DNA of 64,000 nucleotides, taken from contig NZ_VCNC01000001.1 of the NCBI RefSeq assembly GCF_006210265.1, forward strand, positions 1,188,843 to 1,252,842. Reading direction: 5' to 3'. Within the stretch, counting starts at the first letter, position 1, and the number at the start of each line of letters is the position of its first letter. The position numbers and the translations under genes were made by a program. The stretch comes from Desulfovibrio sp. UCD-KL4C (GTDB lineage Bacteria > Desulfobacterota > Desulfovibrionia > Desulfovibrionales > Desulfovibrionaceae). The notes under the pieces were generated by a model. It made no database searches. It saw nothing but the letters and a program-made list of their open reading frames with translations, and was not told the DNA's origin. Of the stretch, positions 3,205-27,792 are shown piece by piece.

Positions 3205-3291
3205 TGGTACCCAGAACGAGACTTGAACTCGTACAAGCCGAAGCTCGAGGGATTTTAAGTCCCTTGCGTCTACCAATTCCGCCATCCGGGC
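3205..3291 (-). tRNA. tRNA-Leu (anticodon UAA)
   Basis: Class II tRNA of 87 bases read on the minus strand. Acceptor GCCCGGA pairs with TCTGGGT (two G-T pairs), followed by discriminator A and an encoded CCA. The anticodon arm is AGGGA / TCCCT with loop CTTAAAA, giving anticodon TAA. The long variable arm (TCGAGCTTCGGCTTGTACGA region) and the TTCAAGT T-loop are present. The 3' end faces the accessory genes to the left, the usual geometry for tRNA-targeted integration. Confidence 0.97.
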
Positions 3292-15977: not shown

Positions 15978-16089
15978 TGTTTACTTACAAAATGTTTCTT
16001 GATTACATTGTCAAGAACATTTATATAGGGTTTGATTTTATGTTTTAGATTTTAATTATAAATAACATGTATTGCTTAGGACGGATAGA

Positions 16090-17514
16090 ATGAAACGCAA
16101 CAGATCCTTTTTATTTACTTTATTTTTCTTACTTGCAGCATCTACATCTGCTTTTGCTCAACAGCTTTCAGGTGAAAGTAACCTTGGGGAAGCTGAGGCA
16201 CCTGTTTCAATGGAGCAGGCAGCAACTCAAGTTCCACAGGCTGTTGATCCTGTAAAGGGTGCTGAATTGACTCTTACACTTGAAGAGTGCGTTGAGATGG
16301 GGCTTAAACAGAACCCTACCATTATTTCTGCACGTAAACAGCTGATGGCTTCAGAAAGCAGTGTTAAGTCACAGCGTGGTCAGTTCGGAGCTGGAATGTC
16401 AATGAAGTATGGTTTTACACATTCAAATGACCAACCTAGATCTGCAGATAATCCTTCAGCATATCAGGATCAATGGGGACTTGGAATTAATGTAAGTCAG
16501 CCTATTTTTATGGGATTTGAACTTCTTTCAAAATATCAGAAAACTAAGCTTCAAAGAGATCAGAGTGATGCCCAGCTTTACAATGCTGAACTTGTTTTGA
16601 TCAGAAATATTCAGGAAGCATTTCTGACTCTCCTGCAAGGACGTATGGAAGTAAAAAGTAATCAGGATTCTGTTGCCAGACTTAAATCTCAGTTAGGTGT
16701 TATTCAGGCTTTTTACCAGGTTGGTCTGAGACCTAGAGCAGATGTTTTGCAGGCTGAAGTTGAACTTGCCACTGCGGAACAGTCTCTTCTTAAAGCAAAT
16801 AACTCTGTTGCTTCAAAAACTGCCAGATTGAATACATTACTTAACCTTCCACTTAATAAAAAGGTTGATTATACTGGTGAACTTACTTACCTGCCTTTTT
16901 CAATGACTTTAGACCAGTGCATTGTCAGAGCTGACAAGGATCGTCCTGATCTGCGTATTGCGATGAAAGCTGTTAAGATTTCAGAAGAAGATGTAACAAT
17001 TTCAGAAAGTTCTTTTTATCCTAAGCTAACCGCCGACTTTAATTATAACAGTGCTGGCGGCGATCCTTCCGTAAGTAAAAATAGATATAATTATAAAAAT
17101 CGTCCCGATTCATGGGATGTTGGCGCTAATGTTAATTGGAATTTCTTTAACTGGGGCGAAACATATTATGATGTCCAGAAGTCTAAAGAGACTGTAAATA
17201 AAATTAAGGCTGATTATGATAATACCAGACTTGAAGCATCCTATGAAATTAAAGATCAGCTTTTAAGTTTGAAGGCCGCAGCTGATAGAATCAGGGTTGG
17301 CCGTAAGTCTGTTGAATCCGGACGTGAAGGGTACAGAATGGAAATGGCTCGCTATCAGGCTCAAGTCAGCACAAACAACGATGTTCTTAATGCTCAGTCA
17401 AGACTCAGTGCTAGTGAAGCTCAGCTGATTGAAGCTTTGTCTGATTATCAGGTTGCACTTGCCAGATTGTTTGTTGCAATGGGAGTTAAGAACCCTTCTC
17501 TTAAGACCAGTTAA
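16090..17514 (+). CDS. TolC-family outer membrane efflux protein
   Basis: A 474-residue outer membrane factor. The start is the ATG giving signal peptide MKRNRSFLFTLFFLLAASTSAFA; an in-frame TTG 18 bases earlier lacks a better site. After a ~50-residue linker come two OEP repeats: ECVEMGLKQNPTIISARKQLMAS and later YEIKDQLLSLKAAADRIRVG...EMARYQAQVSTNNDVLNAQSRLS, the long helices that form the periplasmic tunnel. Paired beta segments (SMKYGFTHSND, LTADFNYNSAGGD) would sit in the outer membrane. No inner-membrane pump or fusion protein is adjacent, so partners must be encoded elsewhere. A terminator follows. Confidence 0.93.
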   Translation: MKRNRSFLFTLFFLLAASTSAFAQQLSGESNLGEAEAPVSMEQAATQVPQAVDPVKGAELTLTLEECVEMGLKQNPTIISARKQLMASESSVKSQRGQFGAGMSMKYGFTHSNDQPRSADNPSAYQDQWGLGINVSQPIFMGFELLSKYQKTKLQRDQSDAQLYNAELVLIRNIQEAFLTLLQGRMEVKSNQDSVARLKSQLGVIQAFYQVGLRPRADVLQAEVELATAEQSLLKANNSVASKTARLNTLLNLPLNKKVDYTGELTYLPFSMTLDQCIVRADKDRPDLRIAMKAVKISEEDVTISESSFYPKLTADFNYNSAGGDPSVSKNRYNYKNRPDSWDVGANVNWNFFNWGETYYDVQKSKETVNKIKADYDNTRLEASYEIKDQLLSLKAAADRIRVGRKSVESGREGYRMEMARYQAQVSTNNDVLNAQSRLSASEAQLIEALSDYQVALARLFVAMGVKNPSLKTS

Positions 17515-17534
17515 GTAAATAAAATATACTTTTA

Positions 17535-17563
17535 GAGCCGGGTTCCTTTAAGGAGTCCGGCTT
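17535..17563 (+). terminator. Terminator after the TolC gene
   Basis: Stem AGCCGG...CCGGCT with inner TCCT/AGGA pairing and a small internal mismatch, followed by six T. It ends the outer membrane protein transcript 20 bases after its stop. Confidence 0.87.
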
Positions 17564-17574
17564 TTTTGTTATGG

Positions 17575-17603: not shown

Positions 17604-17623
17604 GAAGTAAACTAGGGGGAATT

Positions 17624-17854
17624 ATGAGCGGAGGAAGAAAACTTTCATCCCGTTTTAGAGATTTTAATAAAGCTGCAAAGGCGAGTATGCCTTGTAAAGC
17701 TTGTGGAGAAGAACTACATTCCCTGCGCAGCTGAACAGGTGTTTATTTGTGCTGCAGGTCATGCGGCAAACAGTATGAAGTTGCGGAATATGCTAAGTTT
17801 ATTGATGATGATTTTGAAGAAGAAATGGCTAATGTTCCGATGAGTAGATTATAA
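17624..17854 (+). CDS. Small dual-CxxC zinc-ribbon selenoprotein (UGA read as Sec37)
   Basis: A frame of 76 sense codons interrupted once by TGA at 17732-17734. Before it lies a basic N-terminus and CKAC (Cys24, Cys27); after it, in the same frame, C-CRSC (Cys43, 44, 47), then an acidic tail EVAEYAKFIDDDFEEEMANVP. The two CxxC pairs on either side of the TGA make one complete zinc-ribbon only if the TGA is read through. A bacterial SECIS-like hairpin begins right after the codon (separate entry). GGGGGA precedes the ATG, and the next gene starts ten bases after the TAA. Desulfovibrio species are known selenoprotein users, and I recall dual-CxxC small selenoproteins annotated in them (from memory, not checked). 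Function unknown; probably redox or metal binding. Confidence 0.82.
17740..17772 (+). promoter_or_regulatory. Bacterial SECIS element (selenocysteine insertion hairpin)
   Basis: Lower stem TGTTT / AAACA, a 5'-side bulge ATTTGT, and upper stem GCTGC / GCGGC closing the loop AGGTCAT. The apical loop begins 21 bases after the TGA, inside the 16-37 base range known for bacterial SECIS elements. The upper loop AGGTCA is nearly the AGGTCT loop of the E. coli fdhF SECIS, including the G and U that SelB contacts. Confidence 0.8.
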
Positions 17855-17863
17855 CGAGGAATT

Positions 17864-18817
17864 ATGAGTTCTAAATTTAAATATCTTATATTGATTGTGT
17901 TTTTTTGTTTTTTACTTGTAATTAGTACTTCAGTTTGCTGTTTTGCTGCAAGCTCTGTTGGACACTCCAATGAATCGCATGAAGCATGGACTTCTTTGAA
18001 GGACAGACTTGTTAATGATGGTTTTAGCAGAGAATATGTTGAGGCTGTTTTTTCTGTCAGTTCTGTTAAGTATGATTCGGCAATGATGGCTCGGAAGATG
18101 AAAGTGCTGCTTCAGCGCAGGTTTGAACCACAAGCTAAAAAAATAGCACGTGAAAAAGAGTTTGATGAAAGATATGTTGGAACAATCCTTTTAGCTGGTG
18201 CATATTCATATTTGCGTGAAAATTATGAAATCCTTACTAAAATAGATAAGCAATATGATGTTTCTCCATCTGTCTTAGTTGCTTTGCTGCTTGTTGAAAC
18301 AAAGCTTGGTCATACTCTCGGAACTTCTCCGGCTTTTTGCAATCTTGCTAATATGGCTGCTAGCCCCGACCCTGATGTCTTTTTTAAAGATTTAGACTCT
18401 GCTGAACTTAGTCTCGCTGATATGAAATGGCTAAGAAAAAGAACTAAGCGGAAGGCTGACTGGGCGTATAAAGAATTGTCAGCACTTTTAAAATTTTCTT
18501 CGGACAACTCGATTAATCCGTCTGAAATTCCGGGGTCACCTTACGGAGCTTTTGGTATTTGTCAGTTTATGCCAACTACAGCCCTCAGTTATGCTGTTGA
18601 TGGTGACAATGATGGACGAATAGATCTGTTTGGTAAGAATGATGCGCTGGAAAGCATGGCCAATTTTTTTAAAAGGCATGGCTGGAAAAAATCACTTAGT
18701 AAAGATAAAAAACTAAAAGTTATCTACCGCTATAACCACTCAATGGTATATGCACGGACTATATATGAAGTAGCCAATCAGCTGGATCGCATTCGATCTA
18801 CTTTCGGTCCTGATTAA
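17864..18817 (+). CDS. Lytic murein transglycosylase (MltB/SLT_2 type)
   Basis: A 317-residue exported enzyme that cleaves the MurNAc-GlcNAc bond of peptidoglycan. Signal region residues 1-28 (LILIVFFCFLLVISTSVCCFAA) precede an SLT_2 domain. The catalytic Glu is in LLVETKLGHTLGT (Glu145), followed by NLANMAASPD and GAFGICQFMPTTAL, the family's substrate-groove motifs. An Asp-rich DGDNDGRIDLFGKNDA near residue 247 resembles the MltB calcium site. GAGGAATT precedes the ATG. It follows the selenoprotein gene by ten bases and is likely co-transcribed with it. There is no clear lipobox, so it is probably periplasmic. Confidence 0.9.
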   Translation: MSSKFKYLILIVFFCFLLVISTSVCCFAASSVGHSNESHEAWTSLKDRLVNDGFSREYVEAVFSVSSVKYDSAMMARKMKVLLQRRFEPQAKKIAREKEFDERYVGTILLAGAYSYLRENYEILTKIDKQYDVSPSVLVALLLVETKLGHTLGTSPAFCNLANMAASPDPDVFFKDLDSAELSLADMKWLRKRTKRKADWAYKELSALLKFSSDNSINPSEIPGSPYGAFGICQFMPTTALSYAVDGDNDGRIDLFGKNDALESMANFFKRHGWKKSLSKDKKLKVIYRYNHSMVYARTIYEVANQLDRIRSTFGPD

Positions 18818-27551: not shown

Positions 27552-27626
27552 GCGGGAATAACTCAGCGGTAGAGTGTAACCTTGCCAAGGTTGAAGTCGC
27601 GAGTTCAAATCTCGTTTCCCGCTCCA
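27552..27626 (+). tRNA. tRNA-Gly (anticodon GCC), copy 1
   Basis: Acceptor GCGGGAA / TTCCCGC, D-arm with AGCGGTA, anticodon loop around TTGCCAA giving GCC, T-loop TTCAAAT, discriminator T and encoded CCA. Differs from copy 2 by a single C/T in the D-loop. Confidence 0.97.
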
Positions 27627-27638
27627 TTTTTTTTCTTA

Positions 27639-27713
27639 GGCGACATAGCCAAGCGGTAAGGCAGAGGTCTGCAAAACCTCCATTCTCCGGTTCAAATCCG
27701 GATGTCGCCTCCA
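27639..27713 (+). tRNA. tRNA-Cys (anticodon GCA)
   Basis: Acceptor GGCGACA / TGTCGCC, D-arm with AGCGGTAAGGC, anticodon arm GAGGT-CTGCAAA-ACCTC giving GCA, T-loop TTCAAAT, discriminator T and encoded CCA. It lies between two near-identical tRNA-Gly genes. Confidence 0.97.
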
Positions 27714-27717
27714 GCTT

Positions 27718-27792
27718 GCGGGAATAACTCAGTGGTAGAGTGTAACCTTGCCAAGGTTGAAGTCGCGAGTTCAAATCTCGTTTCCCGCTCCA
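27718..27792 (+). tRNA. tRNA-Gly (anticodon GCC), copy 2
   Basis: Same fold and anticodon as copy 1, with a T in place of C in the D-loop (AGTGGTA). It starts four bases after the tRNA-Cys CCA, so the three tRNAs must be processed from one precursor ending at the following terminator. Confidence 0.97.

Follow-up and report, generated by a model that had tools for sequence, protein, structure and literature searches.

The window analysed here, a stretch of 64,000 nucleotides from Desulfovibrio sp. UCD-KL4C, contains a short reading frame interrupted by a single TGA. The question this locus raises is whether that codon ends a peptide or is read as selenocysteine (Sec), and, in the latter case, what the small protein might do. 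On the forward strand the frame runs for 76 codons from 17624 to 17854. The TGA at 17732–17734 is codon 37 and lies between a first CxxC pair at 17693–17704 (C24 and C27) and a second at 17753–17764 (C44 and C47), and the frame closes with a TAA at 17852–17854. A likely ribosome binding site, AGGGGG at 17614–17619, can be read from the sequence 5–10 bases before the ATG. A first-pass annotation had already described the frame, its single in-frame TGA and the two cysteine pairs, and translation confirms all of these. A conventional reading stops at the TGA, and the listing of open reading frames of at least 60 residues has none in this frame. The case illustrates once more that ordinary gene finders would truncate genes of this type at their TGA.

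When the frame is read through, the protein matches the NCBIfam family NF041197, “dual CXXC motif small (seleno)protein”, with 78.2 bits (cut-off 40) over the whole of the profile (positions 1–53 of 53), and it shows the feature of that family, a Sec or Cys placed between two CxxC pairs. Nothing sets it outside the family, and the gene is a member of this already catalogued family rather than of a new one. In Pfam no family scores over its cut-off for the protein; the Lar, LysW and FmdB zinc ribbons show a weak profile likeness to it or to its relatives, in every case under the curated cut-offs. The dual CXXC motif small protein is listed as OS_HP3, a prokaryotic selenoprotein family with the motif RxU, in a passage of PMC13188914, and OS_HP3 is also found in a table of PMC9312934; these passages of the two reviews give no function for it. 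Beyond the two reviews, none of the titles and starts of abstracts among the papers listed names the family or ties a small selenoprotein to dsr genes, and an earlier mention is possible (2007 Olavius; 2025 Haft and Tolstoy).

The most direct evidence on the TGA comes from homologs. In a protein search with Cys placed at codon 37, 164 of the 199 genomes of the same bacterial family were matched at E ≤ 0.001, and among the matches listed a single TGA interrupts the matched region in at least 43 genomes, the others having no stop. From 127 loci a set of 128 rows was taken for comparison. Codon 37 is TGA in 80 of these rows and a Cys codon (TGC or TGT) in the remaining 48, and in all 128 the U or C is followed by six residues and then by the second CxxC pair. 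Both states occur even within the window's genus, where 13 TGA and 3 Cys forms are found among 16 genomes, and on a tree built with the codon-37 column masked (55 columns, poorly resolved) the state changes at least 13 times. The frame after the TGA also behaves as coding sequence. Relative to the sites available, the changes in close pairs are mostly synonymous. Over 39 codons the window and its nearest relative differ by 4 synonymous and 3 non-synonymous changes (dN/dS 0.15), and of 9 distinct close pairs 8 gave a value for this part, with dN/dS between 0 and 0.30. The first-pass annotation had proposed looking for homologs with Cys or UGA at this codon and with conserved flanks, and both were found. 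The computation shows that UGA and Cys replace each other at codon 37 among homologs, and that the frame downstream of it is under constraint at the protein level. As a separate observation, one subfamily of NF041197 (L137–L140, L143 and L144) ends in IIYD instead of (D/N)R(I/L); its six rows are all Cys forms and are set apart from the others by a branch with an SH-aLRT of 100.

Bacterial Sec insertion depends on a hairpin downstream of the codon, and here the reading of the first-pass annotation stands with small corrections. It had placed a SECIS hairpin after the TGA, with a loop AGGTCAT and its apex 21 bases past the TGA, and the hairpin is found. The stem pairs 17750–17756 with 17762–17768 on the forward strand, and the loop is GGTCA (17757–17761), 23–27 bases past the last base of the TGA. 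The SECIS element of E. coli fdhF lies within the coding sequence, soon after the UGA, and consists of a short stem whose loop contains GGUC. We take the window hairpin to resemble it in these respects (short stem, GGUC-containing loop, intragenic position), presumably with the difference that its loop is a few bases further from the UGA. A further difference from fdhF is that the window hairpin overlaps the codons of the second CxxC pair. Whether the hairpin appears depends on the length of the stretch that is folded: it is part of the minimum-energy fold of 44- and 37-nt stretches, an alternative pairing beats it in a 66-nt stretch, and it does not form in a 28-nt stretch that cuts the stem. 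Compared with synonymous shuffles, the window hairpin taken alone is not unusual (z −1.46, p 0.10). The family gives a clearer signal. The mean hairpin z against such shuffles is −1.53 in the TGA rows of the main family (n = 62, window included; p ≤ 0.05 in 29 of them) and −2.17 in 18 TGA rows of a paralogous subfamily (p ≤ 0.05 in 12), as against −0.02 in 41 Cys rows, of which only 2 reach p ≤ 0.05. Counting the T of the TGA as 0, position +26 is a G in 60 of the 62 TGA rows versus 13 of the 41 Cys rows. A bias of the hairpin to the TGA rows together with a kept loop G would be expected under selection for a SECIS element, and it is because of the homologs, not of the window sequence alone, that the hairpin is regarded as more than chance. 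At the level of the family, a SECIS hairpin with a conserved loop G follows the UGA.

The machinery for Sec is likewise encoded in the genome from which the window comes. The earlier annotation had named selA, selB and selC as genes to look for, and all three are present, as is selD, their best matches lying over the curated cut-offs: tRNA-Sec 78.7 bits (cut-off 47), selB 382.6 (242), selA 598.7 (268) and selD 329.2 (125). The selA and selB genes are ∼1.4 kb apart on one contig. It is worth noting that selD itself (L200, G000:C1:379227-380144) has an in-frame TGA, so that the selenophosphate synthase looks like a selenoprotein too. In the sample of the window's bacterial family, tRNA-Sec was found in 41 of the 43 TGA genomes among those listed, the two TGA carriers without a match being G175 and G189 (81–84% complete). 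In a wider sample of the phylum it was found in 76 of 81 carriers, searched at E ≤ 1e-11 with the stricter filters used for large searches; there the TGA carriers without a match are G302, G342, G381, G397 and G423 (95, 81, 81, 98 and 97% complete). These missing matches are taken as gaps in draft assemblies or as missed matches. Taken together, homologs, hairpin and machinery leave it practically certain that the selenoprotein gene is real.

As for what the protein does, its distribution points to sulfate reduction. In the phylum sample of 297 genomes there are 81 carriers at E ≤ 0.001, of which 64 are over the NF041197 cut-off. A strong dsrA (a match at E ≤ 1e-40) is present in 78 of the 81 carriers versus 66 of the 216 non-carriers (Fisher p 3e-27). 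The three carriers without one are G239 (67% complete, with a weak dsrA), G308 (76%) and G242 (98%), the last having a weak family match that contains two TGAs. The p values are inflated by shared descent, and kinship is controlled only partly, by counting bacterial families: counted in this way, dsrA is found in 33 of 33 carrier families versus 17 of 62 non-carrier families (p 4e-13), where one carrier family (f8) rests on the weak match of G242, dsrA being present in other f8 genomes. With over-cut-off matches only, the figures are 28 of 28 versus 22 of 67 dsrA-positive families (p 2e-10). The aprA gene follows the same pattern, being over its cut-off in 76 of the 81 carriers versus 41 of the 216 non-carriers. 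Since only 3 of the 31 genomes with a strong dsrA and no aprA are carriers, the family follows full sulfate reducers. It is not essential to the pathway, since 66 of the 144 strong-dsrA genomes of the phylum sample are without it. Within the window's bacterial family (199 genomes) dsrA is found in 156 of 164 carriers versus 11 of 35 non-carriers; among the 8 carriers without dsrA at E ≤ 1e-40, four (G011, G024, G061 and G163) are 98–100% complete. Selenium machinery was considered as the cause of this distribution and rejected, tRNA-Sec being found in 259 of the 297 phylum genomes, far above the 81 carriers.

A link to the dsr genes at the level of gene position is seen in the paralogous subfamily mentioned above, and not in the subfamily to which the window gene belongs. 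None of 65 over-cut-off matches (window included) lies within 7 kb of a listed dsrA, although a listed dsrA is on the same contig for only 10 of them, and in the window's genome the window gene, the single family match, is on a different contig from dsrA. For the window's subfamily the link to sulfate reduction is thus a phyletic profile. The phylum search also gave 40 matches below the NF041197 cut-off. Nine of these, in five bacterial families, have a listed dsrA within 7 kb (the largest distance being 6.0 kb), and just 14 of the 40 are on a contig that also has a listed dsrA. The nine (L202–L210, in G227, G458, G439, G397, G374, G263, G297, G459 and G478) are all TGA forms. Nineteen fetched paralog rows, 18 with TGA and one with Cys, make up one side of a tree branch against all other rows (SH-aLRT 98), and share a CxxCGG-like first pair, a GxU before the second pair and the lack of the (D/N)R(I/L) tail. 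Six of the nine dsr-near paralogs are in this clade; those of G227, G458 and G439 are outside the tree set and have the same motif with TGA. Scored with Cys in place of the TGA, two paralogs come out slightly above the NF041197 cut-off, at 46.8 and 40.4 bits; the dsr-near paralogs are borderline for NF041197, and their TGA makes them easy to overlook.

In G227 and G374 the paralog is immediately ahead of dsrA. At some of the nine loci it is flanked by a dsrP-like gene and by TPR genes: in G459 it lies between, on one side, an NrfD gene preceded by a Fer4 gene (dsrP- and dsrO-like, from Pfam) and, on the other, TPR genes, with dsrA beyond; other dsr gene names at the paralog loci were assigned by eye. 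TPR proteins are found beside the dsr-linked paralog at L190, L205, L209 and L210 (from Pfam for L190). The same loci have a protein in which TPR/HEAT repeats are combined with cysteine pairs close to the N-terminus, and cysteine-rich small proteins between the dsrP-like and dsrA genes. It is possible that these TPR and cysteine-rich neighbours are further Dsr accessories. Another small protein tied to dissimilatory sulfite reduction is DsrD, which is described as an allosteric activator of DsrAB in a passage of PMC10591310. At several of the fetched loci dsrAB is followed by small DsrD-like frames (named by eye). They differ from the present family in that, judged by eye, they lack an in-frame TGA and, in the portions read, CxxC pairs. 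Since dsrA and aprA accompany the family across genomes, and since the paralogous subfamily is found near dsrA in nine genomes, a role tied to sulfate reduction is likely.

A structure model built from seven sequences has a mean pLDDT of 64.5 and values of 78–84 over residues 21–50. Between the two CxxC pairs the model has strands at residues 30–36 and 39–44, with residue 37 in the turn. With moderate confidence, the model suggests a zinc ribbon with Sec at the tip of a hairpin, apart from the metal knuckles. In the mechanism proposed here, SelB bound to the RNA hairpin would lead to insertion of Sec at the UGA. The two CxxC pairs would bind one zinc and form the ribbon. The tip of its beta-hairpin would be occupied by Sec (or Cys), with an Arg two residues before it, and a partner may dock on the acidic segment at the C-terminus, whose last residues are (D/N/S)R(I/L). 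The protein would probably serve sulfate reducers in thiol/selenol redox reactions or in the handling of sulfur, and the first candidate partners would be DsrC or DsrAB intermediates. That the Sec finger-tip carries out redox chemistry or sulfur transfer on a Dsr-type partner is a tentative proposal.

A different use of the same residues is conceivable, in which Sec or Cys serves as a fifth metal ligand or metal sensor and the protein is a zinc or soft-metal binder or buffer instead of a redox or sulfur factor. Two CxxC pairs and a soft selenium ligand in one small protein would suit this, as would the zinc-ribbon rows in the structure comparison. The first-pass annotation had also raised Sec as an unusual metal ligand. 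The model does not favour it: residue 37 is placed in the hairpin turn, and six strand residues would keep it from C44, which makes a metal-ligand role unlikely. The protein could also be a zinc ribbon that binds nucleic acid or RNA polymerase, a factor in transcription or translation for which Sec would act as the redox switch. The nearest rows in the structure comparison include RNA polymerase zinc-ribbon subunits and ribosomal proteins, and there is a weak profile likeness to ribosomal L37ae. However, the best Foldseek E is 0.14 and the best VIA Z is 3.9, a value where the tool says that likeness may mean only a common arrangement, and all family matches apart from NF041197 are under their cut-offs, so that a factor of this kind seems improbable. 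A sequence search of solved structures gave nothing convincing, the best match being ribosomal L37A at E 0.039. The rows of the structure comparison are weak and of a generic zinc-ribbon type.

The genes on either side could point to yet another role, in the cell envelope. Upstream is an outer-membrane efflux (tolC-like) gene at 16072–17514 (Pfam OEP), followed on the forward strand by an intrinsic-terminator-like stem-loop at 17534–17564 (14 pairs and then a T-run). Such sites number 3 in the 1.6 kb scanned versus 1.1 expected; with one of them after the tolC-like gene, the selenoprotein gene probably starts a new unit. Downstream on the same strand is a lytic transglycosylase gene (Pfam SLT_2, MltB-like; Pfam and ORF listing) at 17864–18817. 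A peptidoglycan hydrolase gene had been noted here earlier with a gap of ten bases; the gene is there, and the gap between the TAA and its ATG at 17864 is 9 bases. In all 16 genomes of the genus the tolC-like gene is upstream and an SLT_2 homolog begins 3–18 bp downstream. The suggestion of co-expression with the hydrolase holds only in part: in this genus the selenoprotein gene and mltB are possibly co-transcribed, but most loci of other clades are arranged differently. Elsewhere in the window, Rfam at gathering thresholds yields tRNAs only, three in tandem at 27552–27789 on the forward strand and one at 3208–3291 on the reverse strand.

From this arrangement the selenoprotein could be a partner or regulator of the lytic transglycosylase, and Sec decoding could tune mltB translation to the selenium supply. 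The closely spaced SLT_2 homolog throughout the genus speaks for this, as does the terminator-like site after tolC, which would make the selenoprotein gene and mltB a separate unit. However, at most loci outside the genus the neighbours are others, such as truA, fabD and alaS-like genes (named by eye); a separate start codon, preceded by a purine-rich stretch, is present for mltB; and the Cys forms L080, L083 and L087 keep the same arrangement. An envelope role is quite improbable on these grounds. As a general partner the lytic transglycosylase is unsupported, the neighbours changing between clades, and no constant neighbour that could serve as a functional clue to the main family was found across loci of different clades. 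The last alternative, that the TGA is a plain stop ending a 36-residue peptide before a decayed remnant, agrees with the conventional reading that terminates there and with the unremarkable hairpin of the window alone, but comparison of homologs, in which 48 of 128 rows have Cys there, the C-terminal half is conserved and dN/dS after the TGA is low, brings it close to refuted, and with the hairpin favoured in TGA forms and the Sec machinery in the genome it appears extremely improbable.

The best explanation overall is probably a selenoprotein of NF041197, a zinc ribbon tipped with Sec, that works in thiol or sulfur handling in sulfate reducers. Relative to the NF041197 record, and as far as was searched, the sulfate-reducer profile, the dsr-linked paralog and the model with Sec in a turn are new. 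The family, to which the passages of the two reviews assign no function, can now be given a testable place, in that it follows dsrA and aprA across the phylum and has a Sec-bearing paralog near dsrA. It is possible, although far from established, that it is an overlooked accessory of sulfate reduction, in which the Sec finger-tip would reduce, or transfer the sulfur of, a protein-bound intermediate such as a tri- or persulfide of DsrC. If this is true, one paralog would be encoded in the dsr region, and the paralog of the window type would act from elsewhere in the genome.
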